The notes under the pieces are model-generated. The model was given only the letters and a program-made list of their open reading frames with translations, was not told where the DNA came from and did no database searches. A stretch of DNA of 64,000 nt from Selaginella tamariscina. Lineage: Eukaryota; Streptophyta; Lycopodiopsida; Selaginellales; Selaginellaceae. A program made the translations under genes and the position numbers. The stretch is taken from the NCBI GenBank assembly GCA_003024785.1, contig PUQB01000006.1, positions 657,817 to 721,816 on the forward strand, written 5' to 3'. Positions 2,283-63,318 of this stretch are shown piece after piece (within the stretch, counting starts at the first letter, position 1; each line of letters starts with the position of its first letter).

Positions 2283-2533
2283 GACAATATGTTTAATACT
2301 GGAGATAAAGTATGTCTTCTTCGGAACAACGAGATAGTTGGCACTGGAACTGTGGAAGTTCGAGATAATAATGCATCATGTCACAATATTGCCCAAGGAT
2401 CTTGTGTGTACGTATGGGTGAACACCATTTACAAGCATGTTGAGGTTCTGGGAATGGAATTTGAGGAGGGTTCTCCTGTATTGTGGAATTTGGATGAAGT
2501 CAAGGTTGACACAGAATATGCAGAGTCACAAAC
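2283..2533 (+). pseudogene. Transposase-like gene, 5' part (before LARD copy A)
   Basis: The open frame encodes ~83 residues before it runs into the LTR of copy A at 2534. It has a small beta-rich look (GDKVCLLRNNEIVGTG near the start, then GSCVYVWVNTIYKHVEVLG) reminiscent of the short domain next to plant En/Spm-type transposases. That family link is weak recall. With the retroelement and one copy of its CAAAC duplication removed, the frame continues from 9655 for several tens of codons, so this exon and the 9.65-12.4 kb block were once one gene. The element was therefore inserted into coding sequence. Residues after 2533 in this frame belong to the LTR. Confidence 0.5.
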
Positions 2534-4232: not shown

Positions 4233-7200
4233 CACTCCCCGCCTTTGAAAATGGTCAACGTCCTCGTTGACGTCCAACTCCAAGACTAGATAATGTTAGA
4301 AAAAACTAACCAAAACTAACATATCACTCTATGCGGAGTTAGCCAAAAGTTCACATAAGTTTTATTACCCCTCTTGCATTACGCGAAACCAAGTACTTCA
4401 GAACCGTCATTCACTAAGTCGTAAACTTAGCTGCCGGAGGCACCACCTGCGACATGAAGTCACTTGGAGACCTTTTGCACGTCTGCAAAGTCTATCACCC
4501 GACGCACACAACACATATGGTTAATTTCTTTACTTTAACTAGAATTTATTTGGAGGCCTCTAGTTAGTGTTGTTGCCGGCCCCTTGGTTAATAAGAAATA
4601 AAGACTTACTTTATCCTTTTATAGTAAAGGTTGTTGATGACCCCTGTCATCTAGCGCACAACAAGCACTCAAATGCTTGACCCAAACACCTTCGCATTTC
4701 TTTGATTTTCCAACGGTCCCACATTGTCACATGTTATGGTATTATAGTCTCACATTTCTGCATCCCTCGGTGTTTCTCATTACTCCTTTACATAAGGGTC
4801 TGCTACTATACCTATTCCTCGTTAGTATATAGTTACGCCAGACTAAGTATGAGACTTTTATCGGAATCAAGCTCTTTTCCGATACAAGAGTACAATTCAT
4901 AAAACCTTGTTCTTTATAAACATGTCAATCTGGCCAGAGGCGATCACAGAGGCGCATGGCTGTACACATGTATACAACAAGATTATGCCAATCTACCAAC
5001 TGTCATCCACTTGGTGTGTTATTAACATAAATTTATTCCTGATAGGAATCAAATTTAGTCAAATCTGCGACCAAGTTTGATAGCACTACCATTTGTCCTT
5101 CGCAACCATCTTTGTACTTTTTCATAACACCGACCAGTTCAGGGACCAGATAAGCTAACAACCTTTCTTACAAACTAATGTGGAAACTAGGAAATTCAAC
5201 CCATCTCTAATGCCTCAATCACAATCTTTGTCTTAATTAGTACCCTCATTGTACTCATTCTCCAAAGAGCACAACATACTAGGTGCCATTCAATAATTCC
5301 TAACTCCTTATCGTACTAAGTTCAAAATACGGAATTTTAAAACTTAGTTTTTACGATAAGAATCTCCCTAAACTCGTAATACTGTATGCCTCCGTAACAT
5401 TATATCTATTTCCAACTCTTAAACTTATTTCGTAAATGTTTCTCAACACTATACCGAAGTATAGCATTTCACTAATTGAAACAACTAGTGTTTTTGATAA
5501 ACATCTTTTAAAACTAATCCTTATTCTATAAATAGTCGCAATTTCGATATTGATACTCTCGAATGGATAATGATCGTTTTAACGTTCAAATCCTAAGCTT
5601 ATCAACTAGTTGTTATACTAGTGGATATAAACTTACAATCATATCAATTTATCGAAATGCTACAACTACATTATAGATATGGTCTTAGTTTATATGAACC
5701 GAACTTCAATTTTGAGACGGAAATATAATGTTATGACAGTATTTCGAGGAACTTTGTTCAGAGACTAAGAGGAATCATGAACTAGTGTCTGGTTCATCTA
5801 ATTGATTTAGTAAGATATAAACCTCCACATAAATGTTATCATAACACTGAAGTGTTAGATCAACTTCATGTTTTAGTCATACCTTATAACTCAATAGATC
5901 TCCCCAAACATGAATAAAATATCTAGTTCAGTACATTGAATTAAGATACATTATTCACTCTAGACACTTAGCAATCCAGAAAGTATCCCATTGCCCCTCA
6001 AGCAATGTATTGAGAAATGTCTCATTTCTTAACTAACTTGAAAACACGTTTCAAGTTATAACACTAAGGTAGTGCCTTACCAAAGTGTCAAACTCAAATC
6101 CACTTGAGTCTTTATATTATATGATTACGGCCTCATGTGATCATAACCAAGTTTTAATATTGAGTGCTCCAAACCCAATATTCAAGAGATACCATACTAT
6201 ACTTTGACAAGTCATTTATAATCAATCTTAAAAGACTGTCATAAATACTTTCAAAGTTTAAGATATGAATATCTCAAGGAATGAGGTGATAGGAAACCTC
6301 ATATTTTTGTACCGAATATTGGACTATACGTTACGAACCTTGTATCACAATCATCAAGAAGGGAGATCATCTTCTTGAATTAATCCCGCTATTTCACTTT
6401 CAAGAATATTGAACCAAGGTCAAGGAACACCATCAAACCTTGAGATAGAACCAAAGACTAACCCAAGGAATATAATCAAACCTTGAGTCAAGAATAATTC
6501 TAATTTTCAATATTCTAAAGAACTGAAGATACATACTTTATTTGTTCTTTAAGTGCCCACATTTGCGACCATGATGCAGAGTCAAGAAACCGTCTTTTGA
6601 ATAATCGTATTCGACTCTAAAATGAAATTGATATTGAAAATCAATATCAACTTCTAAGTCTCTTCGAACACCGACTCTCTGAGGAAGTACATGCACTTAA
6701 ACCTCCAAAATGTATACCCGACTAACTTCCGACTCATTTGACACCACCACACATAACTTATTAAATTTAGCAAGTTTCCTTACTTAGTCAATAAGCAGAG
6801 TGGAGAATTCTAAATCATGCTCTTCTTAACCAAGGAATCACCCTTGTTCAAGAGCTTATCCCCACATTGCAAACAACATTACAAATTTTAAGATTAAAGA
6901 GTTAACAATGAAAATGCACAAGTGTGCGCCGAACGCCTTCACTATGCATGTCCTTATTACTCAGTAAACTATGCCATCTATCCCAAAGTTGCATTGATAA
7001 CTTCATAATCAAGTTAGCTGAGTTAGCTAACTTGAATACAAAGTGCGCGCCTACAACCAACTAAGGTTTAAGTTGTACATTGTTCAAATCAGACGACTTG
7101 AACTTAGTAAACTATTTCACCTTGCAACTAGCGTCATCAAAATATTGCGAACATCAGACAATACTTTGACTACATTGGATCTTCAAACCCATTGCTTAAC

Positions 7201-7885
7201 ATATTTATCATATGTTAATATTTGACTTTCTTTTGTATTATAAGTTCATCACCATAGTCTGCTTCTGAGTTACACTCTGGAAAACACGCACTATAATGAG
7301 AGCTTATTTTACAACTTCTATCAGAATGTAATGTTCACTCTTATGTTTGAATATGCCCCTTCTCTCGAAGTCAAAGGCGCACTTCTGAACATAAGTCTTT
7401 CCCCATTTGAACACTATTGTTGGAAATGATATTGAATCTTGACCTAAGCCAAAACTTAATGGACATAGTCATGTTCTCAAATCATGTGTTATCCCAAATT
7501 CAAACACCTTAAAGAAAAAGAAAAATTTTCAATAATGTGTAGAATAGGATATCACAAGGCCCATCTCACAAGACTTAGTTTGTAAACCAAAACAAACTAA
7601 CATGCCTTGTCTTGTGGAAGTAAATGGTAAAGTAACCTGGACAACCATAAGGTAAAATAACCTGGCATACAACTTGGAAGCTGACTTCCAAGTGCTACCT
7701 TCTAAGTCCATAACCAACACCCACTTATGAAGTAGGTGTACTCTTAAGAGTTATAAATCTCATGACCAACTCTCCATGCAGAATTCAGACATTAGCCGAA
7801 AGTGATAGAGTACTTCAAGAATTTAGAACTAACTAAACCCTAAAATACACTATACTTTAGGTAGTCCTACTGACCGTAGAGAATA

Positions 7886-7900
7886 GGCTCTGATACCAAT
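7886..7900 (-). promoter_or_regulatory. tRNA-Met(i) primer-binding site, copy A
   Basis: Minus strand reads ATTGGTATCAGAGCC immediately inside the LTR. TGGTATCAGAGC is the usual complement of the plant initiator tRNA-Met 3' end. It sets the element's orientation. Confidence 0.88.
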
Positions 7901-9649
7901 TGTCAGAGTTTTAACCCAAAGGGCCAACACGTGGCAACACGTGGGTGCCAGGTGGCCATTCGCGTCATCACCCTGTGTGAGCAACGCTAAGTTTCCCAGA
8001 ACAACCCCAACGACCCCTAAGGTTAGACTCTAATGCCCAATTGGACAGGAGACTTAGGGTTTAGCCTAAGTCTCCCTAGAGTGTCTACCCCCAAAACCCT
8101 TGAGAGATAACCCTAGTTAACTTAGGGTCTTGCCCTAGAAGACCTAGACAGGCTCATGCCCTAACCCCCATCAAGGAGACGTGTGTTCCACACATACCCT
8201 AGACAGAGCTAAAGCATCGTCACTTACCCCTTGAGGAATCACCCTCATCCGGGAGTATAACCCCTTTAGGGCGACAAGGGGTACCCCGAACCACGACTAA
8301 CCCCTAAGGGTTTGAGTGGCAAGTTATACCCTAGACCTAGGGCTAGTACTTAGTGAGGACACGAGTGTGCGCCGTAGGCGACACGAGTGTTCTGCTAAGC
8401 AAACTTCCTAAGACTAGGTTTGGGATAACCCTAAGCACATGACCTTGCGAATGCCTTACGAAAGGGCTTCTGCTAATGAGCTTAGGTTGTTCAACCCCTG
8501 GATTCCAAGGAGAACACTCCCCTAGCCAAGTGTGCCAAAGCACACCTAGTTACGAGACCTAACCTCCCTTGAGCGGATGCCCAAGGCTTAGCACCCTAGT
8601 GCAAGCACAAGCATGCCTGTTTGCTAGAGTATCCAACCCCTTACAACAAGCCCATGACATAACCCCAAAGGGCGTGCCTCGGGCGTTGTACCATGTGACG
8701 TTTAGCCCAGTGTCACATCTCCATGTGACACTGCCTTCCATGATGTGGGCTATCATCCCATAGCCCTTAGATTCAAGAATTGCACTAAGTACCACAAACG
8801 TGATTCCTAAATGCCAACTCTAGAACCCCTCAATGAACCCTTAGGAACTAGGTAACATGAACCTGTCAAACAAGATCCCACGCCCACAGTTGAACAAGGA
8901 CATAGATGTGCCTTGCTTGGCGTGAGTGCTACACCTAGCTTGACGTGGAGGAGGAGGCTGGAGACAAGCCTCAACCTCTGCCTCTTGGAATGTGCATTCC
9001 GACGTGACCTCCCAGGCATGGATTCGCCAACGTTAAGGGTAAGCTACCCCGAAAGTGGAACGTACCCCTGGCATCTGGAAGTTAGGGCGGCACAATAGAG
9101 GGTTGTACCTTAACGACACAAGCTGAAGCTTGCACCGGCAGAAAGCAACGAACTCATTCATGAACCAGGAGCTCTCCTACGTATACTCTACCTTATTTAT
9201 GTGACGGAGCCCCCCCCCCCCTCTTTTCCTATTTGTGTTAGTGGGCTGGCACTGAATTTTAGCCCCTTAGACAAATTAGCAATATGAGCCTATAACTCAC
9301 CCTTACTCTTACCCCTAAACCCTACCCAAGGGGGTGGGGGTTTTAGGGCATGGGTTAGGGCAACCCTAGGGTTAGGTCAACCCTAGGGGTGTTCCTAACC
9401 CTATTTAACATGCCAAACTCATCTTAACTAGGACATCAAAATCGGGGGTGGGTTTTCTAGAAGGTAAGTGCTACCTTCGCTTAGAGTTTCTCGCGACATC
9501 TAAAGATAGCCGGCCGGACTACCCTTAAACACCTAAGTGCACTAAGCGGGGCTGTTTCTCACTACATCTAAGGTCCGTCAACATAGTACAGTAGGTAACA
9601 ACAGTCAACGTCCAAAATAAAGGGTCGAGTCATAGTAAAAACTATGACA
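7901..9649 (-). repeat. Copy A, right LTR (5' LTR in element sense)
   Basis: 1,749 bases, near-identical to 2534-4232 apart from single or few-base indels and one ~47-base block. It has a single copy of the 68-base internal unit that is repeated in other family members. Confidence 0.9.
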
Positions 9650-9654
9650 CAAAC

Positions 9655-28044: not shown

Positions 28045-28137
28045 GATCTAGGAAAGAAAAAAGGAGGAAAATGAAGGAAAGGAATCAAGAAAAAGGTAGC
28101 TGGAAAACGGAGAACTATGAAGCAGTTACTATCAAAC

Positions 28138-39451: not shown

Positions 39452-39592
39452 ATGGGGTGGATAAGGATGAGTCTTAGTTTAACTCATAGTCTGTCTTCAA
39501 GGGGTTGCCTGAGACATTTAAGTGTTGGTTTTGGTTGTATGAGTTTTGGAGTTTTATTTGGGCTGTAATTAAGTAGTTTTATACATATAGTA

Positions 39593-40482
39593 ACTTCACA
39601 ATCAAGTTAGTTGAGTTAGCTAACTTGAATACAAAGTGCACGCTTACAACCAACTAAGGTTTTAAAATTATACTTTATTCAAATCAGGTGACTTGAACTT
39701 AGTAAACTATTTTACCTAATGTTACTTGTAGCTAGCGTCATCAAAATATTGCGAACATCGGACAATACTTTGATTACATTGAATCTAAGAACCAACTACT
39801 TAACATATTCATCAAATGTTAATATGACATTTCATTGTATTATAAATTCAATGTTTGCTCTGGAGTTACACTCTGGAAAACATGCACTATAATGAGAGCT
39901 TATTTTACACTTTAGTTAAAATGTAATATTCCCTCTTATGTTTAAAATGCCCCTTTTTCCAAAGTCAAAGATGCACATTTGAACATAAGTCTTTCCCCAT
40001 TTGAACACATTGTTGGACCCAATATTGAAGCCAAAACTCAATGGACACTGTATGTTTCCAAATCATGTGTTATCCCAAATTCAAACACCTTAAAGAAAAA
40101 GAAAAATTTTCATTAATGTGTAGACTTAGGATATCACAAGACACACCTCACAAGACTTAGTTTATAAGCCAGAACAAACTAACACGCCACATCTTGTGGA
40201 GTATATGGTAAGGTAACATGAACATCCATAAGGTAAAGTAACCTGGCATACAACTTGGAAGTTGCCTTCCAAGTGTTACCTTTGGACATTTGAGTCTATA
40301 ACCCACACTCACTTAAGAAGTAGGTGTACTCTGAAGAGTTATACATCTCAGGACCAACTCTCCACGCAGAATTCAGACGTTAGCCAAAAGTGATAAAGTT
40401 CAAGATTTAGAACTAACTAAACCCTAACCACACCACACTTTAGGCAGTCCTACTAACCGTAAAGAATGGCTCCGATACCAAT
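39593..40482 (-). mobile_element. LARD interior end fragment
   Basis: Matches copy A 6998-7900 (minus orientation) up to and including a primer site. It starts mid-element exactly where the Dof relic stops, so its left boundary is a rearrangement breakpoint. Belongs to a lost fourth minus-oriented copy. Confidence 0.8.
40468..40482 (-). promoter_or_regulatory. tRNA-Met(i) primer site, fragment at 40 kb
   Basis: Minus strand reads ATTGGTATCGGAGCC beside the LTR start at 40483; one base off the copy A site. Confidence 0.8.
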
Positions 40483-41125
40483 TGTTAGAGTTTTAACCCA
40501 AAGGGCCAACACTGGCTGCCAAGTGGCCATTCGGTGTCATCACCTTGTGTGCAACGCTAAGTCTTCCAAGATAACCCTAAGAGTCTGACTCAGGGGCCCA
40601 ATTAGGCAAAAGACTTAGAGTCCTACCCTAAGTCCCCTAGAAAGACCATCCCCTGAACCCTAAAGGATAACCCGGGTAAACTTTAAGATCCTATCCCAGT
40701 AAACCTAGACAGGCTCATGCCCTAACCCCACAAAGGAGTGTTCTCACACATACCCCCATGACAGAGCTAAGGCATCGTCACTTACCCCTCGAGGAATCAC
40801 CCCATTCGGGAGTACAACCCCTTTAGGGCGACAAAGGGTACCCTGAACCACGACTAACCCCTAAGGGTTTGAGTGGCCAAGTCATACCCTAGACCTAGGG
40901 CTAGTACTAGTGAGACACGAGTGTGCGCCGTAGTGGACACGAGTGTTCTGCTAAGCAAACTCCTTAAAGCTAAATTTGAATAACCCTAAGTAATGACCTT
41001 ACGAGTGTCTCATGATAGGGCTTTTGCTAATGAGCTTAGGTTGTCAACCCTTAGATCCTAAGGAGAACACCCCCTAGCCAGGTGTCCAAAGCACACCTAG
41101 TTACAAGACCTAACCTCCCTTGAGC
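40483..41125 (-). repeat. Minus-oriented partial LTR
   Basis: First ~640 bases of a minus-oriented LTR (TGTTAGAG... to ...cctcccttgagc), then an abrupt switch to a plus-oriented LTR at ~41126. Confidence 0.8.
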
Positions 41126-42386
41126 AAAGCTAGCACTTCCATCTAGAAAACTCTTACCTTGGTTTTTCGTGTCCCGGTTGGATTAATGGCTAGTTCTGGT
41201 GAGTTCGGCATGTCGGATATGCTTAGAAATACCCCCAGGTTTGACAAGTTAGTTTAGGGTCGATGGAATAACTCACCAAGTATGTTCCTCTGGGAATGAG
41301 ATTTCAGTGCTAGCCCACTTATGTAAATAGGAAAACAAGGGGGGGGCCTCTGTCACATAAATAAGGTAGTATATAGAGTGAGGGTTCCTGGGTTCATGAA
41401 TTGAGCTCGTTACTCTTCTCCCTGTGCAAGCTTTACTTGTGTCGTCAAGGCACAACCCCTATTGTGCCGCCCTAACTTCCAGATGCCAGGGGTACGTCCC
41501 ACCTTCGGGGTAGCTTAACCCTTAAACGTTGGCGAATCCATGCCTGGGAGGTCTTTCAGAAATGCACGTTCCAAGAGGCAGAGGTTGAGGCTTGTCTCTA
41601 GCCTCCTCCCCACGTCAAGCTAGGGTAGCACTCACGGCAAGTAAGGCACATCCGTGTCCTTGTTCAACTGTGAGCGTGGGATCTTGTTTGACAGGTTCAT
41701 GTTACTTGGTTCCTAGGGTTCATTAGGGTTCTAGAGTCGGCATTTAGGAGCCACGTTTGTGCACTTTGTGCAACTCTTGAATCTACGGGCTATGGCATGA
41801 TAGCCCACATCGGGGAAGGTAGTGTCACATGGAGATGTGACACTGGGCTAAACGTCACATGGTACAACGCTCAAGGCACGCCCTTTGGGGTTATGTCGAG
41901 GGCTTGTCGCCAAGGGGTTGGATACTTTAGCAAACAGACATGCTTGTGCTTGCACTAGGGTGCTAAGCCTTGGGCATCCACTCAAGAGAGGTTAGGTCTC
42001 ATAACTAGGTGTGCTTTGGCACACTAGGCTAGGGGAGTGTTCTCCTTGGAATTCAAGGGTTGAACAACCTAAACATGTTAGCAGGAGCCCTTTCGTGAGG
42101 CACTCGCAAAGTCATGTGCTTAAGGTTATCCCAAACCTAGCCTTAAGGAGTTTGCTTAGCAGAACACTCGTGTCCGCCTACGGCGCACACTCGTGTCCTC
42201 ACTAAGTACTAGCCCTAGGTCTAAGGTATAACTTGGCCACTCAAACTCTTAGGGGTTAGTCATGGTTCATGGTACCCCTTGTCACCCTAAAGGGGTTGTA
42301 CTCTCGGATGAGGGTGATTCCTCAAGGGATAAGTGACGATGCCTTAGCTCTGTTCAGGGGTAAGTATGGAACACACGTCTCCTTGA

Positions 42387-43036
42387 TGTCAAGCCACGAT
42401 CCAGGAACCAGGAAGAGAACAGGATTCCAAGGACAGGAAGGCTGGACTCAGGAACAGGACCGAGAGCAGGACAGGAACTAGGAATAGGAACATGACGGAT
42501 CTAGGAGCAGGACAGGATCAGGATAGATCCGGAAGCAAGACAGGAAAGCGCATGACAAGATCCAGGAACAAGACAGAAGCAGGACAGGATCCAGGAGCAG
42601 GACAGGAAACAGGAGCGAGACAGGAACAGGACAGGAAACAAGACAAGAACAAGACAAGACGAGATTGATCGTAGTAAGACTGGTGTTGATAGTAACTGAT
42701 TGTACAATAATTAGGTCGGAGCTTTTATGCTCACAACTCCAAGAGCTAATCTAGGCATGAGTGCTAAAAGTGGTTGCATGCATGCAAAAGTGATTGCATG
42801 CATGCAGAGGCTAAGATGAGTCCACATGTCCCTTGTCCTCTAGGCATATCCTGTGGCATATCCTATAGGAATATCCTGTAGGAATATCCTACAACCGAAT
42901 CCTGTGTCCGGAATCCTGGTAGGAATATTCTGTAGGAAAGTCCTGCAACCCATATCCTGTATCCGGAATCCTGTAGGAAAGTCCTGCAACCCATGTCCTG
43001 TATCCGGAATCCTGTACTCTGTATCGGGTCGTGACA
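42387..43036 (-). mobile_element. Solo LTR of the gypsy G2 family
   Basis: 650 bases, edges TGTCAAGCC ... GGTCGTGACA, with perfect CTTGA duplication (42382-42386, 43037-43041). It interrupts the copy B 5' LTR within a phrase (acacgtctccttgatg.ggg) that is intact in other LTRs. Confidence 0.92.
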
Positions 43037-43380
43037 CTTGATGGGGTTAGGGCATGAGCCTGTCTAGGTCTTCTAGGGCAAGACCCTAAGTCAACTAGGG
43101 TTATCCCTCAAGGGTTTTGGGGGTAGACACTCTAGGGAGACTTAGGCTAAACCCTAAGTCAACTAGGGTTATCCCTCAAGGGTTCTGGGGGCAGACATTC
43201 TAGGGAGACTTAGGCTAAACCCTAAGTCTCCTGTCCACTTGGGCATTAGAGTCTAACCCTAGGGGTCGTTGGGGTTGTTCTGGGAAACTTAGCGTTGCTC
43301 ACACAGGGTGATGACGCCGAATGGCCACCTGGCAGCCACGTGTTGCCACGTGTTGGCCCTTTGGGTTAAAACTCTGACAA

Positions 43381-43394
43381 TTGGTATCGGAGCC
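43381..43394 (+). promoter_or_regulatory. tRNA-Met(i) primer site, copy B
   Basis: TTGGTATCGGAGCC immediately after the LTR end; confirms plus orientation. Confidence 0.88.
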
Positions 43395-44678
43395 ATTCTC
43401 TGCGGTCAGGGACTACCTAAAGTGTAGTGTGTTTTAGGGTTTAGTTAGTTCTAAATTTTTGAAGTACTCTATCACTTTCGGCTAACGTCTGAATTCTGCG
43501 TGGAGAGTTGGTCCTGAGATCTATAACTCTTCAAAGAACATTACTTAATAAGTGGGTGTGGGTTATGGACTCCAATGTCGAAGGTAGCACTCGGAAGGCA
43601 ACTTCCAAGTTGCATGCCAGGTTATTTTCTCTAGGTTACTTGACCTTAAGGTTGTCCAGGTTACTTTACCATATTTTCCACAAGACGTGGCGTGTTAGTT
43701 TGTTCTGGCTTACAAACTAAGTCTTGTGAAGTGGATCATGTGATATCTAAGCTTACCATTATTGAAAATTTTTCTTTTTCTTTAAGGTGTTTGAATTTGG
43801 GATAACACATGATTTGGAAACAGACAGTGTCCTTGAGTTTTGGCTTAGTCAAGATTCAATATCGGATCCAATAGTGTTTCAAACGGGGAAAGACTTATGT
43901 TCAAAGTGCGTCTTTGACTTCGGGAAAAGGGGCATATTCAAACATAAGAGAATACTACATTTTGACATAAAGTGTAAAATAAGCTCTTATTATAGTGCAT
44001 GTTTCCGAGAGTGTAACTCTAGAAGCAGACTATGGTGATGAACTTATAATACAACGAATGTCAAATATTAACATATGATAAATATGTTAAGCAATGGTTT
44101 GAAGATCCAATGTAATCAAAGTATTGTCCGATGTTCGCAATATTTTGATGACGCTAGCTGCAAGTAACATTAGGTGAATAGTTTACTAAGTTCAAGTCCT
44201 TGATTTGAACAAAGTATAACTTGAAACCTTAGTTAGTTGTAAGCGCGCACTCTGTATTCAAGTTAGCTAGCTCGACTAACTTGATTATGAAGTTCTCATA
44301 TGGGATCATGAGAGAGACTTAGATAATACAGCTTGAGGATTTCGTTTCTTATCAATAAGTTTTGGGATAGATGGCATGATCTATCAGAAAGAGAATGTTG
44401 GAAACATACGTTTACATTTTCAGTTTACTGAGTAATAAGGACTTGCATAGTGAAGGCGTTCGGCGCACACTTGTGCATTTTCATTGTTAACTCTTTAATC
44501 TTGAAATTGTAACGTTGTTTGCAATGTGGGGATAAGCTCTTGAACAAGGGTGATTCCTTGGTTAAGAAGAGCATGATTTGGGATTCTTCACTTTGTTTAT
44601 CGACTAAGTAAGGAAACTTGCTAAGTTTGATAACTTATGTGAGAATTACAATGAGCTAGTAATAGTCGGATTTCCATT

Positions 44679-46069
44679 GGAGGTTTAAGTGCATGTACCT
44701 CCTCAGAGAGTCGGTGTTCGATGAGAATTAGAAGTTGATATTGATTTTCAATATCAATTTCATTTTAGAGTCGAATACGATTATTCAAAAGACGGTTTCT
44801 TGACTCTGCATCATGGTCGCAAATGTGGGCACTTAAAGAACAAATAAAGTATGTATCTTCAATCTTTCGGAATATTGAAAAATAGAACTATTCTTGACTC
44901 AAGGTTTGATTGTATTCCTTGGGTTAGTTGTTAGTTCTATCTCAAGGTTTGATGGTGTTCCTTGAGTTGGTTCAATATTCTTGTAAGTATGATATTGTGT
45001 AGCGGGATTAGCTCAAGAAGATGGTGTCCCTTCTTGATGATTGTAGTTCAAGGTTCGTCCAATATCCGTTCGAGAATATGAGGTTTCCTATCACCTCATC
45101 TGTTGAGATATTTATATTCTAAACTTTGGCAGAATTTGTGACAATCTTTTCAAGATTGGTTATAAATGACTTGTCAAAGTATGGTATGATATCTCTTCAA
45201 TATTGAGTTTGGAGCGCTCAATATCAAACTTGGTTATGATCACATGAGGTGGCCGTAATCATATAATATAAAGACTCAAGTGGATTTGAGTCTGACACTT
45301 TGGTAAGGCACTACCTTAGTGTTATAACTTGAAACGTGTTTTCAAGTTAGTTGAGAAATGAGACATTTCTCAATACATTGCTTGAGGGGCAATGTGATAC
45401 TTTCTGGATTGCTAGGTGTCTAGAGTGAATAATGTATCTTAGTTCAATGTACTGAACTAGATATTTTATTCATGTTTGGGGAGATCTATTGAATTATAAG
45501 GTATGACTAAAACATGAAGTTGATATAACACTTCAGTGTTATGATAACATTTATGTGGAGGTTGATATCTTACTAAATCAATTAGATGAACCAGACACTA
45601 GTTCATGATTCCTCTTAGTCTCTGAACAAGTTCCTCGAATACTGTCATAACATTATATTTCCGTCTCAAAATTGAAGTTCGGTTCATGTAAACTAAGACC
45701 ATGTCTATATTATAGTTGTAGCATTTTGATAAATTGATATGATTGTAAGTTTATATCCACTAGTATAACAACTAGTTGATAAACTTAGGATTTGAACGTT
45801 AAAACGATCATTATCCATTCGAGTATCAATATCGAAATTACAACTGTTTATGAATAAGGATTAGTTTAAAAAGATGTTTATCAAAACACTAATTGCTTGA
45901 ATTAGTGAAAATGCTATACTTCGGTATAGTGTTGAGAAACATTTACAAATCAATTTAAAGTTGGAAATAAATATAATGTTATGGAGGCGTGCAGTATTAC
46001 GAGTTCAGGGAGACTCTTATCGTGGAAACTAAGTTTTAAAATTCGGTATTTTGAACTTAGTACGATAAG
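44679..46069 (+). other. Stem-loop chain in LARD interior (copy B)
   Basis: At least 16 local, non-overlapping inverted repeats with perfect 6-10-bp stems. Examples: 44679-44702, 44735-44757 (TTGATATTGA arms), 45013-45037, 45078-45099, 45142-45158, 45200-45224, 45272-45293, 45326-45348, 45351-45373 (TTGAGAAATG arms), 45375-45395, 45440-45459, 45525-45542, 45586-45606, 45887-45907, 45914-45929 (six-bp stem, TTCG loop) and 46016-46069 (long two-part hairpin). Equivalent hairpins occur in copies A, C and E. No ORF explains them. Confidence 0.8.
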
Positions 46070-47100
46070 GAGTTAGGAATATTGAATGGCATCTAGTATG
46101 ATGTGCTCTTTGGGAATGAGTACAATGATGACAATTAAGAACGTGTTATCTAAAGGTTGTCGATTGAGGCACTAGAGATGGGTTGAATTTCCTGGTTTCC
46201 ACATTGGTTTGTAAGAAAGGTATGTTAGCTTATCTGGTCCCTGAACTGGTCGGTGTTATGAAAGAGTACAAAGTGGTTGTGAAAGACGAATGGTAAGTGC
46301 TATCACACTTGTTGTGGATTTGACTGAATTTGATTCCTATCGGGAATAAATTTATGTTAATAACACACCAAGTGGATGGCAGTTGGCAAGACCTTGTTGT
46401 ATACATGTGTACAGCCATGCGCCTCTGTGATCGCCTCTGGCCAGATTGACATGTTTACAAAGAACAGGGTTTTACGAATTGTACTCTTATATCGGAAAAG
46501 AGCTTGATTCCGATAAAAGTCTCATACTTAGTCTGGCGTAGCTATATACTAACAAGATAGGTATAGTAGCAGACCCTTATGAAAAGGGGTAATGAGAAAC
46601 ACCGAGGGATGCAGAGATGTAAGCTATAATACATGTATGTGGAATGTGGAAAATTGGAAAACGTGAAGGTGTTTGGTCAAGCATTTGAGAAGTGCTTGTT
46701 TGTGTTAGACGACAGGGTCGTCAACAGCATTTAATATTAAGGAATAAAGCAAGTCTTTATTTCTTTTAACCAAGGGGCCGGCAACAACACTAACTAGAGG
46801 CCTCCAATATAAATTCTAGTTAAGTAAAGAAATTAACCAGTGTTGTGTGCGTCGGGTGACAGACTTTGCAGACGTGCAAAAGGTCTCCAAGTGACTTCAT
46901 GTCGCAGGTGGTGCCTCCGGCAGCTGGGTTTACGACTCAGTGAACGACGGTTCTGAAGTACTTGGTTTCGCGTAATGCAAGGGGGGTAATAAATTATGTG
47001 AACTTTTGGCTGACTCCGCATAGAGTGATATGTTAGTTTTGGTTAGTTTTTTTAACATTATCTAGTCTTGGAGTTGGACGTCAACGAGGACGTTGACATT

Positions 47101-47117
47101 TTCAAAGGCGGGGAGTG
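47101..47117 (+). promoter_or_regulatory. Polypurine tract, copy B
   Basis: TTCAAAGGCGGGGAGTG directly before the 3' LTR. The same purine tract is at 57160-57176 (copy E) and, reversed, at 4233-4249 (copy A). Confidence 0.75.
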
Positions 47118-48815
47118 TGTCATAGTTTTTACTATGACTCCCCTTTACTTTGGACGTTGACTGTTGTTACGTACTATGTTGATAAGCCCTAGGTGTAGAA
47201 GAAACAGGCCCGCTTAGTGCACTTGGATATCTAGTGATGGTCCGGCCGGGTGTCATTAGGTATTTGCAAGAAACTCTGGGCGAAGCTAGCACTTCCATCT
47301 AGAAAACTCTTACCTTGGTTTTCCGTGTCCCGGTTGGATTAATGGCTAGTTCCGGTGAGTTCGGCATGTCGGATATGCTTAGAAATACCCCCAGGTTTGA
47401 CAGGTTAGGGTTTAGGGGTCGATGGATAACTCACCAAGTATGTTCCCTCTGGGAATGAGATTTCAGTGCTAGCCCACTTATGTAAACAGGAAAACAGGGG
47501 GGGGGGCCTCTGTCACATAAATAAGGTAGTATATAGGAGTGAGGGTTCCTGGGTTCATGACTGAGCTCGTTACTCTTCTCCCGGTGCAAGCTCTAGCTTG
47601 TGTCGTCAAGGCACAACCCTCTGTTGTGCCGCCCTAACTTCCAGATGCCAGGGGTACGTCCCACCTTCGGGGTAGCTTACCCTTAACGTTGGCGAATCCA
47701 TGCCTGGGAGGTCTTGTCGGAATGCACGTTCCAAGAGGCAGAGGTTGAGGCTTGTCTCCAGCCTCCTCCTCCACGTCAAGCTAGGTGTAGCACTCACGGC
47801 CAAGCAAGGCACATCCGTGTCCTTGTCCAACTGTGAGCGTGGGATCTTGTTTGACAGGTTCATGTTACTTGGTTCCTGAGGGTTCATTGAGGGGTTCTAG
47901 AGTCGGCATTTAGGAGCCACGTTTGTGGCACTTGGTGCAACTCTTGAATCTAAGGGCTATGGCATGATAGCCCACATCGGGGAAGGCAGTGTCACATGGA
48001 GATGTGACACTGGGCTAAACGTCACATGGTACAACGCTGAGGCACGCCCTTTGGGGTTATGTCATGGGCTTGTCGCCAAGGGGTTGGATACTTTAGCAAA
48101 CAGACATGCTTGTGCTTGCACTAGGGTGCTAAGCCTTGGGCATCCGCTCAAGGGAGGTTAGGTCTCATAACTAGGTGTGCTTTGGCACACTTGGTTAGGG
48201 GAGTGTTCTCCTTGGAATTCTCCCAAACCTAGCCTTAGGGAGTTTGCTTAGCAGAACACTCGTGTCTGCCTACAGTGCACACTCGTGTCCTCACTAAGTA
48301 CTAGCCCTAGGTCTAGGGTATAACTTGGCCACTCAAACCCTTAGGGGTTAGTCATGGTTCAGGGTACCCCTTGTCGCCCTAAAGGGGTTGTACTCCCGGA
48401 TGAGGGTGATTCCTCAAGGGGTAAGTGACATGCCTTAGCTCTGTCTAGGGGTATGTGTGGAACACACGTCTCCTTGATGGGGGTTAGGGCATGAGCCTGT
48501 CTAGGTCTTCTAGGGCAAGACCCTAAGTCAACTAGGGTTATCCCTCAAGGGTTTTGGGGGCAGACACTCTAGGGAGACTTAGGCTAAACCCTAAGTCAAC
48601 TAGGGTTATCCCTCAAGGGTTTTGGGGGTAGACACTCTAGGGAGACTTAGGCTAAACCCTAAGTCTCCTGTCCACTTGGGCATTAGAGTCTAACCTTAGG
48701 GGTCGTTGGGGTTGTTCTGGGAAACTTAGCGTTGCTCACACAGGGTGATGACGCCGAATGGCCACCTGGCAGCCACGTGTTGCCACGTGTTGGCCCTTTG
48801 GTTAAAACTCTGACA
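47118..48815 (+). repeat. Copy B 3' LTR
   Basis: 1,698 bases, TGTCATAG ... CTCTGACA. Includes a possible TATA box (agtatatagg, ~47528-47537), the GTGTCACAT hairpin (~47990), and two copies of the 68-base unit (~48528-48664). Confidence 0.9.
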
Positions 48816-51800
48816 TCAGGGATCAGATAAGCTAACATACCTTTCTTACAAACTAATGTGGAAACCAGGAAATTCAACCCATCTCTAGTGCCTCAATTGA
48901 CAATCTTTAGATAACACGTCTCTTAATTGTCACTCTCATTGTACTCATTCCCTAAAGAGCACATCATACTAGATGCCGTTCAATACTTCCTAACTCTTTA
49001 TCTCACTAAGTTTAAAATACCAAATTTTAAGACTTAGTTTCCACGATAAGAGTCTCTCTGAATTCAGAATACTGCACGCCTCCATAACATTATATTTATT
49101 TCCAACTCTTAAACTGATTTCGTAAATGTTTCTAAACTATACCGAAGTATAGCATTTTCACTAATTGAAGCAACTAGTGTTTTTATAAACATCTTTTAAA
49201 ACTAATCCTTATTCTATAAATAGTCGCAATTTTGATATTGATACTCTCGAATGGATAATGATCGTTTTAACGTTCAAATCCTAAGCTTATCAACTAGTTG
49301 TTATATTAGTGGATATAAACTTACAATCATATCAATTTATCGAAATGTTACAACTACATTATAGATATGGTTTTAGTTTACATGAACCGAACTTCAATTT
49401 TGAGATGGAAATATAATGTTACGACAGTATTTCGAGGAACTTTGTTCAGAGACTAAGAGGAATCATGAACTAGTGTCTGTTCATCTAATTGATTTAGTAA
49501 GATATCAACCTCCACATAAATGTTATCATAACACTAAGTGTTATATCAACTTCATGTTTCTGTCATACCTTATAATTCAATAGATCTCCCCAACATGAAT
49601 AAGATATCTAGTTCAGTATGTCGAACTAAGATACATTATTCATTCTAGACACCTAGTAATCCAGAAAGTACTACATTGCCCCTCAAGCAATGTATTGAGA
49701 AATGCCTCATTTCTCAACTAACTTAAAACACATTTCAAGTTATAACACTAAGGTAGTGCCTTACCAAAGTGTTGAACTCAAGTCCGCTTGAGTTTTTATA
49801 TTTCATGATTATGGCCACCTCATGTGATCATAACCAAGTCTTAATATTGAGCGCTCCAAACTCAATATTCAAAAATACCATACTATACTTTGACAAGTCA
49901 TTTATAATCAATCTTAAAAGACTGTCATAAATACTTTCAAAGTTTAAGATATGAATATCTTAATGAATGAGGTGATAGGAAACCTCATATTTTGTACCGA
50001 ATATGGGACCATACATTATAGTCATTGTATCACAATCATCAAGAAGGGACCATCTTCTTGAATAATCCCGCTACTTCTTTCAAGAATATTGAACCAAGGT
50101 CAAGGAACACCATCAAACCTTGAGATAAAAAAAGACTAACCCAAGGAATACAATCAAACCTTGAGTCAAGAATAGTTCTAATTTTTCAATATTCTAAAGA
50201 ACTGAAGATACTACTTTATAAGTTCTTTGAAGTCCCACATTTCGACCATGATGCAAAGTCAAGAAACCGTCTTTTGAATAATCGTATTCGACTCTAAAAT
50301 GAAATCGTTATTGAAAAACAATATCAACTTTTGATCCTCATCGAATACCGACTCTTGAGGAGGCATGCACTTAAACCTCCAATGGAAATCCACTGTTACT
50401 AGCTCATTGTAATTCTCAACATAATTATAAAACTTAGCAAGTTTCCTTACTTAGTTGATAAACAAATGGAGAACCTCAAATCATGCTCTTCTTAACCAAG
50501 GATCACCCTTGTTCAAGAGCTTATGCCCACATTGCAAACAACGTTACAATTTCAAGATTAAAAGTTAACAATGAAAAATGCACAAGTGTGCGCCGAACGC
50601 CTTCACTATGCAAGTCCTTCATTACTCAGTAAACTGAAAATGTAAACGTATGTTTCCAACATTACTCTTTGTGATAGATCATGCCATCCATCCAAAAAGC
50701 TGCATTGATAGGGATGCAACATTAAATCTGTTATGCCAAAATCTATTATTCTATCTCATTCTTATGATCCCATATGAGATAATTTCATAATCAAGTTAAC
50801 CGAGCTAGCTAACTTGAATACAGAGTGCGCGCTTACAACTAACTAAGGTTTCAAGTTGTACATGTTCAAATTAGGTACTTGAACTTAGTAAACTATTTCA
50901 CCTAATGTTACTTGCTAACGTCATCAAAATATTGCGAACATCAGACAATACTTTGATTACATTGGATGTTCGAACCAACTGCTTAACATATTCATCATAT
51001 GTTAATATTTGACATTTTGTTGTATTACAAGTTCATCACCATAGTCTGCTTCTAGAGTTACACTTCGAAACATGCACTATAATGAGAGCTTATTTACACT
51101 TTTATGTCAAAATGTAGTGTTTACTCTTATGTTTGAATATGCCCCTTCTTCCGAAGTCAAAGATGCACTTTCGAACATAAGTCTTTCCCCATTTAATATT
51201 GCTGAACCTGATATTGAATCTTGACCTAAGCCAAAACTCAATGGACACTGTCTGTTTCCAAATCATGTGTTATCCCAAATTCAAACACCTTAAAGAAAAA
51301 GAAAAATTTTCAATAATGTGTAGACTTAGGATATCACAAGACCCACTTCAAGACTTAGTTTGTAAGCCAGAACAAACTAACACGCCACGTCTTGTGGAAG
51401 TATATGGTAAAGTAACCCAACATTCATAAGGTAAATAACCTGGCATACAACTTGGAAGTGCTTCCAAGTGCTACCTTCTAAGTCCATAACCCACACCCAC
51501 TTATGAAGTAGGTGTACTTGAAGAGTTATAGATCTCAGGACCAACTCTCCACGCAGAATTCAGACATTAGCCGAAAGTGATAGAGTACTTCAAGAATTTA
51601 GAACTAACTAAACCCTAAAATACACTACACTTTAGGTAGTCCTACTGACCGTAGAGAATAGGCTCCGATACCAATTGTCAGAGTTTTAACCCAAAGGGCC
51701 AACACGTGGCAACACGTGGCTGCCAGGTGGCCATTCGGCGTCATCACCCTATGTGAGCAACGCTAAGTTTCCCAGAACAACCCCAACGACCCCTAGGGTT

Positions 51801-53442: not shown

Positions 53443-56400
53443 ATAGGACTACCTAAAGTGTAGTGTATTTTAGGGTTTAGTTAGTTTTAAATTCTTGAAG
53501 TACTCTATCACTTTCGGCTAACGTCTGAATTCTGTGCGGAGAGTTGGTCCTGAGATCTATAACTCTTCAAAGAACATCTACTTAATAAGTGGGTGTGGGT
53601 TATGGACTCCAATGTCGAAGACACTTGAAGACAACTTCCAAGTTGTATGCCAGGTTACTTTACCTTATGAATGTTTGGGTTACTTTACCATATACTTCCA
53701 CAAGACGTGGCGTGTTAGTTTGTTCTGGCTTACAAACTAAGTCTTGGAAGTGGGTCTGTGATATCCTAAGTCTACACATTATTGAAATTTTTTTTCTTTT
53801 TATTTAAGGTGTTTAGATTTGGGATAACGCATGATTTGAAAACAGATAGTGTCCTTTGAGTTTTGGCTTATGTCAAGATTCAATATCGGATTCAACTAGA
53901 GTGTTCAAACGGGGAAAGACTTATGTTAAATGTGCATCTTTGGCTTCGGGAGAAGGGGCATATTCAAACATAAGAGTGAACACTACATTCTGATAGAAGT
54001 TGTAAAATAAGCTCTCATTATAGTGCATGTTTTCCAGAGTGTAACTCCAAAAGTAGATTATGGTGATGAACTTATAATACAACGGAATGTCGGATATTGA
54101 CATATGATAAATATGTTAAGTAGTGGTTTGAAGATGCAATGTAATTAAAGTATTGTCTAATGTTCGCAATATTTTGATGACGCTAGCTACAAATAACTTT
54201 AGGTGGAATAGTTTACTAAGTTCAAGTCCCTTGATTTGAATAAAGTATAACATGAAACATTAGTTAGTTGTAAGCGCGCACTTTATATTCAGGTTGGCTA
54301 ACTTAGCTAACTCGTTTGAAGTTGTATCTCATATGAGATCATGAGAGAGATTTGGGATAACAATTTAAGGATTCTGCTTTCTTATCGGTACAGTTTCAGG
54401 ATAGATGGCATGATCTATCATAAAGAGTAATGTTGGAAACATACGTTTACATTTTCAGTTTACTGAGTAATGAAGAACTTATATAGTGAAGGTGTTCGGT
54501 GCACACTTGTGCATTTTCATTGTTAACTCTTTAATCTTGGAAACTGTAACGTTGTTTGCAATGTGGAGAGAAGATCTTAAACAAGGGTGATTCCTTGGTT
54601 AAGAAGAGCATGATTTGGGATTCTTCACTTTGTTTATCGACTAAATAAGGAAACTATTAAGTTTGATAACTTATGTTGAGAATTACCAATGAGCTAGTGA
54701 TAGTCGGATTTCCATTGGAGGTTTAAGTGCATGTACCTCCTCAAAGAGTCGGTGTTCGATGAGAATTAGAAATTGATATTGATTTTTAATATCAATTTCA
54801 TTTTAGAGTCGAATACGATTATTCAAAAGACGGTTTCTTGACTCTACATCATGGTCGCAAATTGGGCACTTAAAAAAAATAAAGTATGTATCTTCAATCT
54901 TTCGGAATATTGAAAAATAGAACTACTCTTGATTCAAGGTTTGATTGTATTCCTTGGGTTAGTTGTTAGTTCTATCTCAAGGTTTGATGGTGTTCCTTTA
55001 GTTGATTCAATATTCTTGTAAGTATGATATTATGTAGCGGGATTAGCTCAAGAAGATAGTGTCCCTTCTTGATTATTGTAGTTCAAGGTTTGTCCAATAT
55101 CCGATTCGAGAATATAGGTCTCTATCACCTCATCTGTTGAGATATTTATATTCTAAACTTTGCAGAATTTGTGACAATCTTTTCAAGATTGGTTATAAAT
55201 GACTTGTCAAAGTATGGTATGATATCTTTCAATATTGAGTTTGGAGCACTCAATATCAAACTTGATTATGATCACACGAGGTGGTAATTATAATATAAAA
55301 GACTCAAGTGGATTTGAGTCTGACACTTTGGTAAGGCACTACCTTAGTGTTATAACTTGAAACGTGTTTTCAAGTTAGTTGAGAAATGAGACATTTCTCA
55401 ATACATTGCTTGAGGGGCAATGGATACTTTCTGGATTGCTAGGTGTTAGAGTGAATAATGTATTTAGTTCAATGTATGAACTAGATATTTTATTCATGTT
55501 TGGGGAGATTATTGAATTATAAGGTATGACTAAAACATGAAGTTGATATAACACTTCAGTGTTATGATAACATTTATGTGGAGGTTGATATCTTACTAAA
55601 TCAATTAGATGAACCAGACACTAGTTCATGATTCCTCTTAGTCTCTGAACAAGTTCCTCGGAATACTATCATAACATTATATGTCCATTTTAAAAACTCA
55701 AGTTTGATTCATGTAAACTAAGACCATGTCTATATTATAGTTATAGTATTTTGATAGATTGATATGATTGTAAGTTTATATCCACTAGTATAACAACTAG
55801 TTATATATTAAGCTTAGGATTTGAACGTTAAAACGATCATTATCTATTTAAGAGTATCAATATCGAAATTGCGACTATTTATAGAATAAGGATTAGTTTT
55901 AAAAATGTTTATCAAAAAACACTAGTTGCTTCAATTAGTGAAAATGCTATACTTCGGTATAGTGTTGAGAAACATTTATGAAATCAGTTTAAGAATTGGA
56001 AATAAATATAATGTTATGGAGCCATGCAGTATTCTGAATTCAGAGAGACTTTATCGTGGAAACTAAGTCTTAAAATTGGTATTTTGAACTTAGTGAGATA
56101 AAGAGTTAGAAATATTAAGGCATCTAGTATGATGTGCTCTTTGGAATGAGTACAATGAGATGACAATTAAAGACGTGTTATCTAAAGGTTGTCGATTGAG
56201 GCACTAGAGATGGGTTGAATTTCCTGGTTTCCACATTGGTTTGTAAGAAAGGTATGTTAGCTTATCTGGTCCCTGAACTGGTCGGTGTTATGAAAGAGTA
56301 CAAAGTTGGTTGCGAAAGACAAATGGTAGTGCTATCACACTTGGTCGGGATTTGACTGAATTTGATTCCTATCGGGAATAAATTTATGTTAATAACACAC

Positions 56401-58866
56401 CAAGTGAATGGCAGTTGGTAAATTGGCAAGACCTTGTTGTATACATATGTACAGCCATGCGCCTCTGTGATCGCCTCTGGCCAGATTGACATATTTACAA
56501 AGAACAGGGTTTTACAACTTGTACTCTTATATCGGAAAAGAACTTGATTCCGATAAAAGTCTCATACTTAGTCTGCGTAGCTATATACTAATGAGAGATA
56601 GGTATAGTAGCAGACCCTTATGAAAAGGGGTAATGAGAAGCACCAGGGATGCAGAATGTATAAGCTATAATATCGTAACATGTGGAGATGTGGGACCATT
56701 GGAAAATCAAAAGAAATGCGAAGGTGTTTGGTCAAGCATTTGAGAAGTGCTTGTTGTGTGTTAGACGAAGAGGTCGTCAACAGCATTTAATATTAAGGAA
56801 TAAAGCAAGTTTTTATTTCTGTTAACCAAGGGGCCGGCAACAACACTAACTAGAGGCCTCCAATATAAATTCTAGTTAAGTAAAGAAATTAACCATTGTG
56901 TTGTGTGCGTCGGGTGACAGACTTTGCAGACGTGCAAAAGGTCTCCAAGTGACTTCATGTCGCAGGTGGTGCCTCCGGCAGCTAGGTTTACGACTTAGTG
57001 AACGACGGTTCTGAAGTACTTGGTTTCGCGTAATGCAAGGGGGTAATAAAATTATGTGAACTTTTGGCTGACTCCGCATAGAGTGATATGTTAGTTTTGG
57101 TTAATTTTCTCTAACATTATCTAGTCTTGGAGTTGGACGTCAACGAGGACGTTGACATTTTCAAAGGCGGGGAGTGTGTCATAGTTTTTACTATGACTCC
57201 TCTTTACTTTGGACGTTGACTGTTGTTACCTACTGTACTATGTTGACAAGCCCTACATGTAGTGAGAAACAGCCCCGCTTAGTGCACTTAGGTGTCTAGG
57301 GGTAGTCCGGCCGCTGTCCTTAGATATTGTGAGAAACTCTAAGCGAAGGTAGCACTTACCTTCTAGAAAACTCTTACCCTCGTTTTCCGTGTCCCAGTTG
57401 GATTAATGGTTAGTTCCGGTGAGTTCGCGTGTCGGATATGCTTAGAAATACCCCTAGGTTTGACAGGTTAGGGTTTAGGGTCGATGGATAACTCACCAAG
57501 TATTCCCTCTGGGAATGAGATTTCAGTGCTAGCCCACTTATGTAAACAGGAAAACAGGGGGGGGGGCCTCTGTCACATAAATAAGGTAGTATATAGGAGT
57601 GAGGGTTCCTGGGTTCATGACTGAGCTCGTTACTCTTCTCCCGGTGCAAGCTTAGCTTGTGTCGTCAAGGCACAACCCTCTGTTGTGCCGCCCTAACTTC
57701 CAGATGCAGGGTACGTCCCACCTTCGGGGTAGCTTACCCTTAACGTTGGCGAATCCATGCCTGGGAGGTCTTGTCGGAATGCACGTTCCAAGAGGCAGAG
57801 GTTGAGGTTGTCTCCAGCCTCCTCCTCCACGTCAAGCTAGGTGTGTAGCACTCACGGCCAAGCAAGGCACATCGTGTCCTTGTCCAACTGTGAGTGTGGG
57901 ATCTTGTTTGACAGGTTCACGTTACTTGGTTCCTGAGGGATAATTGAGGGGTTCTAGAGTTGGCATTTAGGAGCCACGTTTGTGGCACTTGGTGCACTCT
58001 TGAATCTAAGGGCTATGGCATGATAGCCCACATCGAAGGCAGTGTCACATGGAGATGTGACACTGGGCTAAACGTCACATGGTACAACGCCTGAGGACAT
58101 GCCCTTTGGGGTTATGTCATGGGCTTGTTGCCAAGGGGTTGGATACTTTAGCAAACAGACATGCTTGTACTTGCACTAGGGTGCTAAGCCTTGGGCATCC
58201 GCTCAAGAGAGGTTAGGTCTTATAACTAGGTGTGCTTTGGCACACTTGGCTAGGGGAGTGTTCTCCTTGGAATTCAAGGTTGAACAACCTAAACATGTTA
58301 GCAGGAGCCCTTTCGTGAGGCACTTGCAAGGTCATGTGCTTAGGGTTATCCCAAACCCAGCCTTAGGGAGTTTACTTAGCAGAACACTCGTGTCCGCCTA
58401 TGGTGCACACTCGTGTCCTCACTAAGTACTAGCCCTAGGTCTAGGGTATAACTTGGCCACTCAAACCCTTAGGGATTAGTTGGTTCATGGTACCCCTTGT
58501 CGCCCTAAAGGGGTTGTACTCCCGGATGAGGGTGATTCCTCAAGGGGTAAGTGACGATGCCTTAGCTCTGTCCAGGGGTATGTGTGGAACACACGTCTCC
58601 TTGATGGGGGTTAGGGCATGAGCCTGTCTAGGTCTTCTAGGGCAAGACCCTAAGTCAACTAGGGTTATCCCTCAAGAGTTCTAGGGGCAGACATTCTAGG
58701 GAGACTTAGGCTAAACCCTAAGTCTCCTATCCACTTGGGCATTAGAGTCTAACCCTAGGGGTCGTTAGGGTTGTTCTGGGAAACTTAGCGTTGCTCACAC
58801 AGGGTGATGACGCCGAATGGCCACCTAGCAGCCACGTGTTAGCCCTTTGGGTTAAAAACTCTGACA
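53443..58866 (+). mobile_element. LARD-type retroelement, copy E (5' LTR missing)
   Basis: Plus-oriented interior 53443-57176, purine tract at its end, and 3' LTR 57177-58866 (1,690 bases, one 68-base unit). 5' LTR and primer site are lost or displaced by copy C. It ends CTCTGACA and is followed by caagg, inside the left arm of the inverted repeat at 58.9 kb. Confidence 0.87.
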
Positions 58867-62124: not shown

Positions 62125-62419
62125 GATGTGAATATGAAATCTGAGGAAACCTAGAAATGTGTCCCGTTCTTATACTCCACACAAAAAGGTTATCCTCGTT
62201 ACCTTTTTCTCGCGTGGGAGCACGTCGTAAACACAGAATAAATGTGGAATATTCTTTTTGAAAAAGGTTTAACGCATCCCACGTATAACTATGCCTCAGC
62301 ATGCATTTTTTCCAGGCTGGCTAAATACCAGCGTTTACCACGTGTCCTCAATTGATAAATGTTACTTGTTTTCTTGGACCCTAAACAGGTGATGAATACT
62401 CCTTACGATCTTTAACACT

Positions 62420-63200: not shown

Positions 63201-63318
63201 AGTTTAAATTGTTTAACTTCTGGATATATTCACACACCTTAAAAAAACACCTTAGCCAAGTGTGCTGTTAGCACACTCAATTACAAAACCTAAACTTCCT
63301 TTAATGATGTCATAAACA

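Follow-up and report, generated by a model that had tools for sequence, protein, structure and literature searches.

How LTR elements without genes of their own compete for another element's proteins is an open question, and it comes up in a stretch of Selaginella tamariscina DNA of 64,000 nucleotides (the window; contig PUQB01000006.1, positions 657,817 to 721,816), in which the middle of a high-copy, protein-less element is a chain of hairpins. What keeps such a chain in place is the question raised by this locus. The element family, of which the window holds several copies, is a LARD (large retrotransposon derivative), a gene-less LTR element, as judged by its LTRs, a target-site duplication, a PBS, a purine tract and an interior of 3.7 kb without Pfam matches in the frames scanned. 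Its parts in the window are the following:

2529..2533 (partner 9650-9654), no strand: target-site duplication CAAAC flanking copy A
2534..9649, minus strand: copy A, complete element with LTRs 98.7% identical and interior at 4233-7899
39584..40481, minus strand: start of the interior of copy F, 86-89% identical to the other copies
41121..43379, plus strand: 5' LTR of copy B, truncated at its 5' end and interrupted at 42388-43036
43381..47117, plus strand: noncoding interior of copy B, 3.7 kb, aligned to copies A, C, E and F
43382..43394, plus strand: PBS TGGTATCGGAGCC of copy B, just inside the 5' LTR, read directly
44679..46069, plus strand: segment of copy B with the chain of 19 hairpins, characterised by hairpin count and MFE (z -14.2 sense, -10.5 antisense)
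47104..47115, plus strand: polypurine-like tract of copy B before the 3' LTR, read directly
47118..48815, plus strand: 3' LTR of copy B (TGTCATAG...CTGACA), with 12 perfect stems of at least 6 bp
48816..51674, minus strand: interior of copy C, cut by copy B at 48816, from the alignment among copies
53446..57176, plus strand: interior of copy E, from the alignment among copies

The LTRs of copy A have TG..CA ends, the PBS of copy B is one which we take to resemble initiator tRNA-Met, and the purine-rich stretch at 47104..47115 is presumably a polypurine tract. In agreement with the preliminary description of this DNA, the interior lacks a recognisable retroelement protein, as there were no Pfam matches at the curated cut-off in the 10 of 14 frames of copy B that were scanned (stop-to-stop, at least 45 aa, copy B only, to which A, C and E are homologous). 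The LTR tip is a hairpin itself (GTCATAG..CTATGAC, 47119-47138), which is present in all five complete LTR starts examined (A 5' and 3', B 3', C 5' and E 3').

With respect to the arrangement of the copies, the 3' LTR of copy B adjoins the cut interior of copy C at 48816, and to the left of B (41120-41125) lies a reversed LTR leading into copy F and not the remainder of C, so that both junctions represent nested or rearranged insertions. At 53442-53446 the start of the copy C 5' LTR meets the interior of copy E (at about its position 30) head to head, copy E being without a 5' LTR there. The insert at 42388-43036 in the 5' LTR of copy B is related to 24584-25225 and 28138-28775, and 24584-28775 (minus strand) is an element of Ty3 type in which gag (PF03732) and protease-like frames were recognised. 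Ceratopteris richardii and Cetraspora pellucida are among the few named gag relatives in the 120 of 271 that were listed. Behind the LTR ends near 23.4 and 33.1 kb, reading by eye revealed no PBS. An open frame at 61433-61945 (minus strand) has a divergent zinc finger (PF02701, E 1.7e-8) of Dof, a plant family, as suits a green-plant host, and no relatives of this frame scored at E 0.001 in a protein search.

In the genome assembly searched (300.7 Mb in 1391 contigs), the 1.4-kb segment of copy B has 1844 candidate loci, of which 40 were scored, at 94-100% identity and with copy B included; the mean pairwise identity among 63 genome copies is 0.956, and the family is young. The set of 89 copies used below comprises four window copies and 85 fetched ones, and for the rest of the interior there are 41 copies. 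The set of 105 contains in addition 16 diverged copies that are 71-89% identical to B, four of the 20 such copies having been left out since they had no match to the segment (L104, L107, L111) or too low a coverage (L112). L027 and L039 are partial for the whole interior, L001 (identical with window copy B) and L002-L008 (duplicates of later loci) were not used, and gap-rich columns were excluded from column counts.

Perfect stems that do not overlap number 19 between 44679 and 46069; they are 6-10 bp long and have loops of 3-14 bases (all 19 have 6 bp or more, 13 have 7 or more and seven have 8 or more). The tightest gaps between neighbouring hairpins are 1, 1, 6 and 6 bases, and the earlier count of about 16 perfect stems, some only a few bases apart, was a slight underestimate. 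Dinucleotide shuffles contain on average 5.0, 1.5 and 0.4 stems of these three minimum lengths and order-2 Markov sequences 5.6, 1.7 and 0.5, none of 1000 sequences of either kind reaching the observed counts; the comparison with shuffles that had been proposed as a check on density (19 versus 5.0) therefore came out in favour of an excess. With loops of 2-14 bases, 13 stems of at least 7 bp compare to 1.5 ± 1.1 in 60 shuffles. The segment holds 13-20 hairpins per copy in the 89 genome copies (mean 17.2), and some 28-35 perfect hairpins are found per whole interior. The stem sequences differ between hairpins, and a 23-base hairpin pattern searched in viral contigs had no match. In the following list of the hairpins of copy B, intact means that all pairs are Watson-Crick or G-U, among the scorable copies of the set of 105:

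44679..44702, plus strand: 6-bp stem, intact in 68 of 70
44735..44757, plus strand: 10-bp stem with loop TTT, intact in 71 of 101
44858..44879, plus strand: 6-bp stem, intact in 86 of 102
44941..44966, plus strand: 7-bp stem, intact in 93 of 104
44973..44997, plus strand: 6-bp stem, intact in 59 of 81
45013..45037, plus strand: 8-bp stem, intact in 93 of 104
45078..45099, plus strand: 7-bp stem, intact in 90 of 103
45142..45158, plus strand: 7-bp stem, intact in 84 of 104
45200..45224, plus strand: 8-bp stem, intact in 102 of 105
45272..45293, plus strand: 8-bp stem, the covariation example of the preliminary description, intact in 79 of 104
45325..45349, plus strand: 10-bp stem, intact in 96 of 104
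45351..45373, plus strand: 10-bp stem, 1 base after the preceding hairpin, intact in 90 of 103
45375..45395, plus strand: 7-bp stem, 1 base after the preceding hairpin, intact in 93 of 103
45440..45459, plus strand: 7-bp stem with a second Watson-Crick type at three pairs, intact in 94 of 105
45525..45542, plus strand: 7-bp stem holding the best covarying pair, 45527/45540, intact in 72 of 104
45586..45606, plus strand: 6-bp stem, intact in 95 of 103
45759..45776, plus strand: 6-bp stem, intact in 86 of 102
45887..45907, plus strand: 8-bp stem bounding an inversion in genome copy L068, intact in 83 of 96
45914..45929, plus strand: 6-bp stem with a cUUCGg tetraloop, intact in 85 of 99

One pair of the hairpin at 44735..44757 is A-U in 68 copies, G-U in 17, U-U in 10 and G-C in five, and the exact cUUCGg form of the last hairpin occurs in 71 of the 89 copies. 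The hairpins recur in copies A, C and E, the segment corresponding to 54717-56102 in E, 6706-5307 (minus strand) in A and 50380-48997 (minus strand) in C; the excess itself is clear in C (sliding-window z 5.2-6.9), variable in E (1.9-6.1) and weak in A (1.7-3.9 in the interior), with 13.9 and 10.4 in B. In 9801-23100, where no long element copy was detected, z ranges from -1.2 to 3.4. The LTRs of the element are hairpin-rich as well, and hairpin-rich stretches exist elsewhere in the window, e.g., at 701-2800 and 61601-63700; the excess is thus mainly, though not exclusively, a property of the LARD family, LTRs included.

The predicted folds are correspondingly stable. Compared with 16 shuffles each, the MFE of the 1.4-kb segment has z values of -14.2 (B), -8.9 (E), -10.7 (A) and -13.0 (C) in sense and of -10.5, -7.8, -10.9 and -9.9, respectively, in antisense orientation, the antisense folds being nearly as unusual because perfect palindromes fold on both strands. 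In 250-base windows, the mean sense z of the four interiors is -2.6 to -3.3 in contrast to -0.4 to -0.6 in three background stretches, and column-shuffled alignment windows (28, overlapping) give mean z values of -4.3 in sense and -3.2 in antisense. RNAalifold pairs 475 column pairs in the four-copy alignment, among them those of two imperfect stems at columns 810-932 and 1029-1213 with about 45-49 pairs each; only two pairs have a kept two-sided change, and the covariation term of +0.81 lends no support. The sense strand of the element is strongly biased towards G over C (skew 0.19 at 44001-46000 and 0.21 at 54001-56000), and this skew alone makes more G-U pairing possible in the sense RNA.

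The preliminary description had argued for selection on RNA structure from covariation in the stem at 45272..45293. The pair states given there are correct, 45273/45292 being G-C in B and E, G-U in A and A-U in C, and 45280/45285 changing from G-U to G-C between copies; the counterpart in copy A, placed one base off, is at 6090-6111, and in copy C the outermost pair of the stem is an A-C mismatch. Across 105 copies, 45273/45292 is G-C in 73, G-U in 19, A-U in four, U-U in three and G-A in one (p 0.06), and the best pair, 45527/45540, is A-U in 90, G-C in 11 and G-U in two (nominal p 0.0041, 19 pairs tested). With a home-made approximation to R-scape that uses a tree as null, two of the 19 testable hairpin pairs have p < 0.05 and none p < 0.001 in 105 copies, and in 63 copies no pair-compatible pair within 250 columns has p < 0.001. 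A second Watson-Crick type is seen at 11 of 140 stem pairs versus 17.9 expected (196 of 200 simulations reach 11), and two-sided changes among five window copies are not in excess of a slid-partner control. Covariation, for which a large alignment had been named as the check, hence has to be given up as an argument, no pair being significant in either 63 or 105 copies. Since double transitions convert one Watson-Crick pair into another, two-sided changes that keep pairing are weak evidence on their own; in addition, the family is young and the power to detect covariation therefore low, and its lack of significance is partly due to the fact that the stems change little.

In the 105 copies, 98.0% of the stem cells are still paired versus 85.1 ± 1.9% in a neutral tree simulation (0 of 200 reach), a figure to be read in the light of the stems having been picked as perfect in B and of a null that spreads changes regardless of the stems' low changeability. 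On internal branches of the 89-copy tree, the stems of the B hairpins change at 0.65 of the trinucleotide-context expectation (2.8% of shifted masks are as low) and their loops at 1.05, and in the interior outside the segment (41 copies) the respective values are 0.64 (5.7% of shifted masks) and 0.99. On terminal branches, stems are at 0.82 (segment) and 0.60 (rest) and loops at 0.83 and 1.09. Taking six reference copies in turn, internal-branch values are 0.42-0.63 for stems and 0.53-1.11 for loops; with A hairpins the loops are as slow as the stems (0.53 both), with L073 hairpins the loops are at 0.68, and with L096 hairpins the stems are not significantly slow (96 of 400, 105-copy set). The contrast between stems and loops thus speaks against a slow-down of the region as a whole, though it does not do so with all references.

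Measured against unpaired sites (73 copies, internal branches), transitions at predicted pairs point in the same direction for the sense fold, those keeping the pair being at 0.76 and those breaking it at 0.31, in contrast to 0.58 and 0.52 for the antisense fold. With all predicted pairs of the whole interior and normalised counts, pair-keeping changes are favoured equally on both strands, and comparing paired with unpaired sites on internal versus terminal branches yields no significant difference (OR 0.79, p 0.47; OR 0.73, p 0.10). Internal/terminal tests based on single-copy structures, one of which had p 0.019 when B was the reference and 0.23-1.0 for three further copies, were dropped because the reference's own changes were counted as internal; averaged structures and then perfect hairpins with non-stem controls replaced them.

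Both strands of a perfect palindrome read alike, whereas a changed pair that is G-U in the sense RNA is A-C in the antisense RNA, so the balance between the two kinds of change is strand-specific. For the 16 B hairpins outside the segment, there are 33 changes to G-U versus nine to A-C (p 0.003, from non-stem column rates), and for the B hairpins of the whole interior 70 versus 22, a G-U share of 0.76 in contrast to 0.52 ± 0.06 in pseudo-stems made of random non-stem columns (0 of 2000 reach). With E, A, L013, L037 and L045 as references the share is 0.70-0.74 versus 0.54-0.58 (0-12 of 500 reach), so that over the whole interior and all events the six references tried are all at no more than 12 of 500. 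Within the segment the outcome varies: for all events in 89 copies, the preference for G-U is found with B (3 of 500) and A (12 of 500), weakly with L073 (44 of 500), and not with C (437), L043 (403) and L090 (394 of 500). In an earlier test of the G-U share on all events in these 89 copies, the preference was significant when B (p 0.023) or A (p 0.040) served as reference, but not for L043 (p 0.12), L073 (0.15) or L090 (0.41).

On the internal branches of the 105-copy tree, the G-U share in the segment is 0.70 versus 0.49 in the control (1 of 400 reaches) and lies above the control mean for all eight references, of which five are at no more than 9 of 400 (1, 1, 4, 116, 76, 0, 9 and 44 of 400 reach). 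When all branches are counted, B (4 of 400) is the only reference under 5%, little or no preference being seen with L043 (171), L096 (133) and L090 (265 of 400), and pairs defined by majority give p 0.18 (interior) and 0.10 (segment) for all events. The segment signal is hence stronger on internal branches, as selection on RNA in transposing lineages predicts; over the whole interior terminal branches also show the preference (51 versus 18). Hairpins that contain one G-U or one A-C within a sequence number 38 and 10, with about 8 and 5 expected, where the counts are sums over four interiors and the copies not independent; with one row per column position they number 18 and six against 4.6 and 2.9 in shuffles. 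Taken together, changes to G-U are preferred over changes to A-C on the sense strand, with a significance that depends on the reference copy, the tests across references not being independent of each other.

The main rival to selection on the RNA is a mutational by-product, in which one arm is copied into the other by template switching, either in reverse transcription or in DNA replication, and the RNA has no role. Template switching is reported to create and maintain hairpins (in passages of PMC8794818) and to invert spacers between repeats (in passages of PMC8604942), and L068 (genome copy C658:167963-169307) carries an inversion of about 66 bp at L068:1151-1216, homologous to window 45829-45894, that ends in the arm matching 45887-45894 and has the opposite orientation in all the remaining copies (72 of 73); switching between inverted repeats is expected to yield products of this kind. 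The hairpin-rich LTRs, the unusual antisense folds and the absent covariation fit such an origin, too. However, clusters of changes are not enriched for matches to nearby reverse complements at 10 bases (2.1% versus 3.4% at random spots), with a slight enrichment at 12 bases (1.1% versus 0.2%), stem changes kept on both sides within the same branch are few (eight arm counts, i.e., four), and copying between arms does not predict that G-U is preferred over A-C in one strand, so that as the whole explanation it seems rather unlikely. The same strand bias weighs against a role of the palindromes as DNA (protein-binding sites, cruciforms or chromatin signals), which needs no favoured strand; the perfect Watson-Crick pairing of all 19 stems in B and an LTR tip that is itself an inverted repeat would suit it, yet the stem sequences vary from hairpin to hairpin, and we regard it as very improbable.

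Scarcely better placed is the idea that the hairpins feed or dodge small-RNA silencing, either as precursor-like structures or as a fold that hides the RNA. The long imperfect hairpins of the four-copy consensus fold would be suited to this, but the scan of the 64-kb window yielded no Rfam family at its gathering score, and matches up to E 1 in 41000-49000 consist of a single miRNA family at 23.5 bits versus a cut-off of 72 (E 0.51), which leaves it improbable. A retrozyme-like circular RNA element would share with this one that it is a noncoding, structured and LTR-flanked plant element; the window element is, however, far larger than retrozymes are said to be. In the accessible part of PMC4918200, retrozymes are non-autonomous plant retrotransposons acting through RNA, in contrast to which neither a hammerhead nor any other ribozyme family appeared in the Rfam scan of the window, making this explanation hardly credible.

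Selection on the RNA fold is favoured by the slower change of the stems, the retained pairing and the strand-specific preference for G-U, and it is the better supported of the readings and the likely reason why the hairpins are kept; the reading first put forward is thereby supported in part, on these grounds and not on covariation, the reason then given. Template switching may supply perfect arms while selection keeps them, and both can hold. With slightly less assurance, and still on the favourable side, the full account would be that of a noncoding LARD interior whose sense RNA forms a hairpin chain kept by purifying selection in lineages that still transpose. The sense RNA would be transcribed from the element's own LTR and primed at its own PBS, its local hairpins being joined in the fold by imperfect stems of greater length, and reverse transcription and packaging would presumably be provided by the proteins of an autonomous partner. 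Because the element has no genes, its RNA would have to compete for these proteins through its own fold, and a series of stem-loops could serve this competition by binding Gag, by compacting the RNA or by promoting dimerisation. Packaging or Gag capture as the specific reason is a tentative suggestion, and equally speculative is the view of the interior as a selected RNA device that, by its 28-35 perfect hairpins, secures packaging, dimerisation or reverse transcription for the element in the particles of another one. If this were true, the element would be an RNA-level satellite whose fold is its sole adapted product. With copies that are many and young and hairpins that can be counted, such a LARD makes selection on retrotransposon RNA structure measurable from a genome alone and offers defined stem-loops as deletion targets. 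The case also cautions that a function as RNA should be claimed for inverted repeats of mobile elements only after a strand-specific test.

Among known systems, RNA structure directs packaging and dimerisation in Ty1 and Ty3, according to the available portions of PMC4974528, PMC5454406 and PMC11381356, and the likeness to the window element concerns the proposed mechanism. Ty1 and Ty3 differ from it in encoding Gag and Pol. In the part of PMC4974528 considered, packaging signals of Ty1 are located near the 5' end, UTR or POL sequences are named for Ty3, and deletions of up to 5 kb inside Ty1 do not significantly affect transposition; internal hairpins would thus not generally be needed for packaging, and the comparison cautions against ascribing such a role to each hairpin. 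For the TRIM Cassandra, likewise a noncoding LTR element, a conserved RNA fold has been predicted (PMC7215508, in the sections available) that pairs its LTRs, whereas the window element has local hairpins in a long interior. TRIMs have short LTRs and almost no interior, from which an LTR of 1.7 kb and an interior of 3.7 kb set the window element apart. Within a limited literature search, neither a hairpin chain of this kind nor a strand-specific substitution test was found.

A LARD with structured RNA has already been described, and the window element is a further LARD. LARDs such as Sukkula of the Triticeae reportedly go back to Kalendar et al. 2004, and Sukkula is said to have an interior of about 3.5 kb and LTRs of about 4.4 kb, in contrast to LTRs of 1.7 kb here. 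The original description of LARDs has LTRs of more than 4 kb, which we treat as a trait of the first family and not as a defining one. Both elements are alike in having LTRs, a PBS, a polypurine tract and a noncoding conserved interior; in comparison with Sukkula, the fold of the window element is resolved as short perfect hairpins, with substitutions tested in up to 105 copies.
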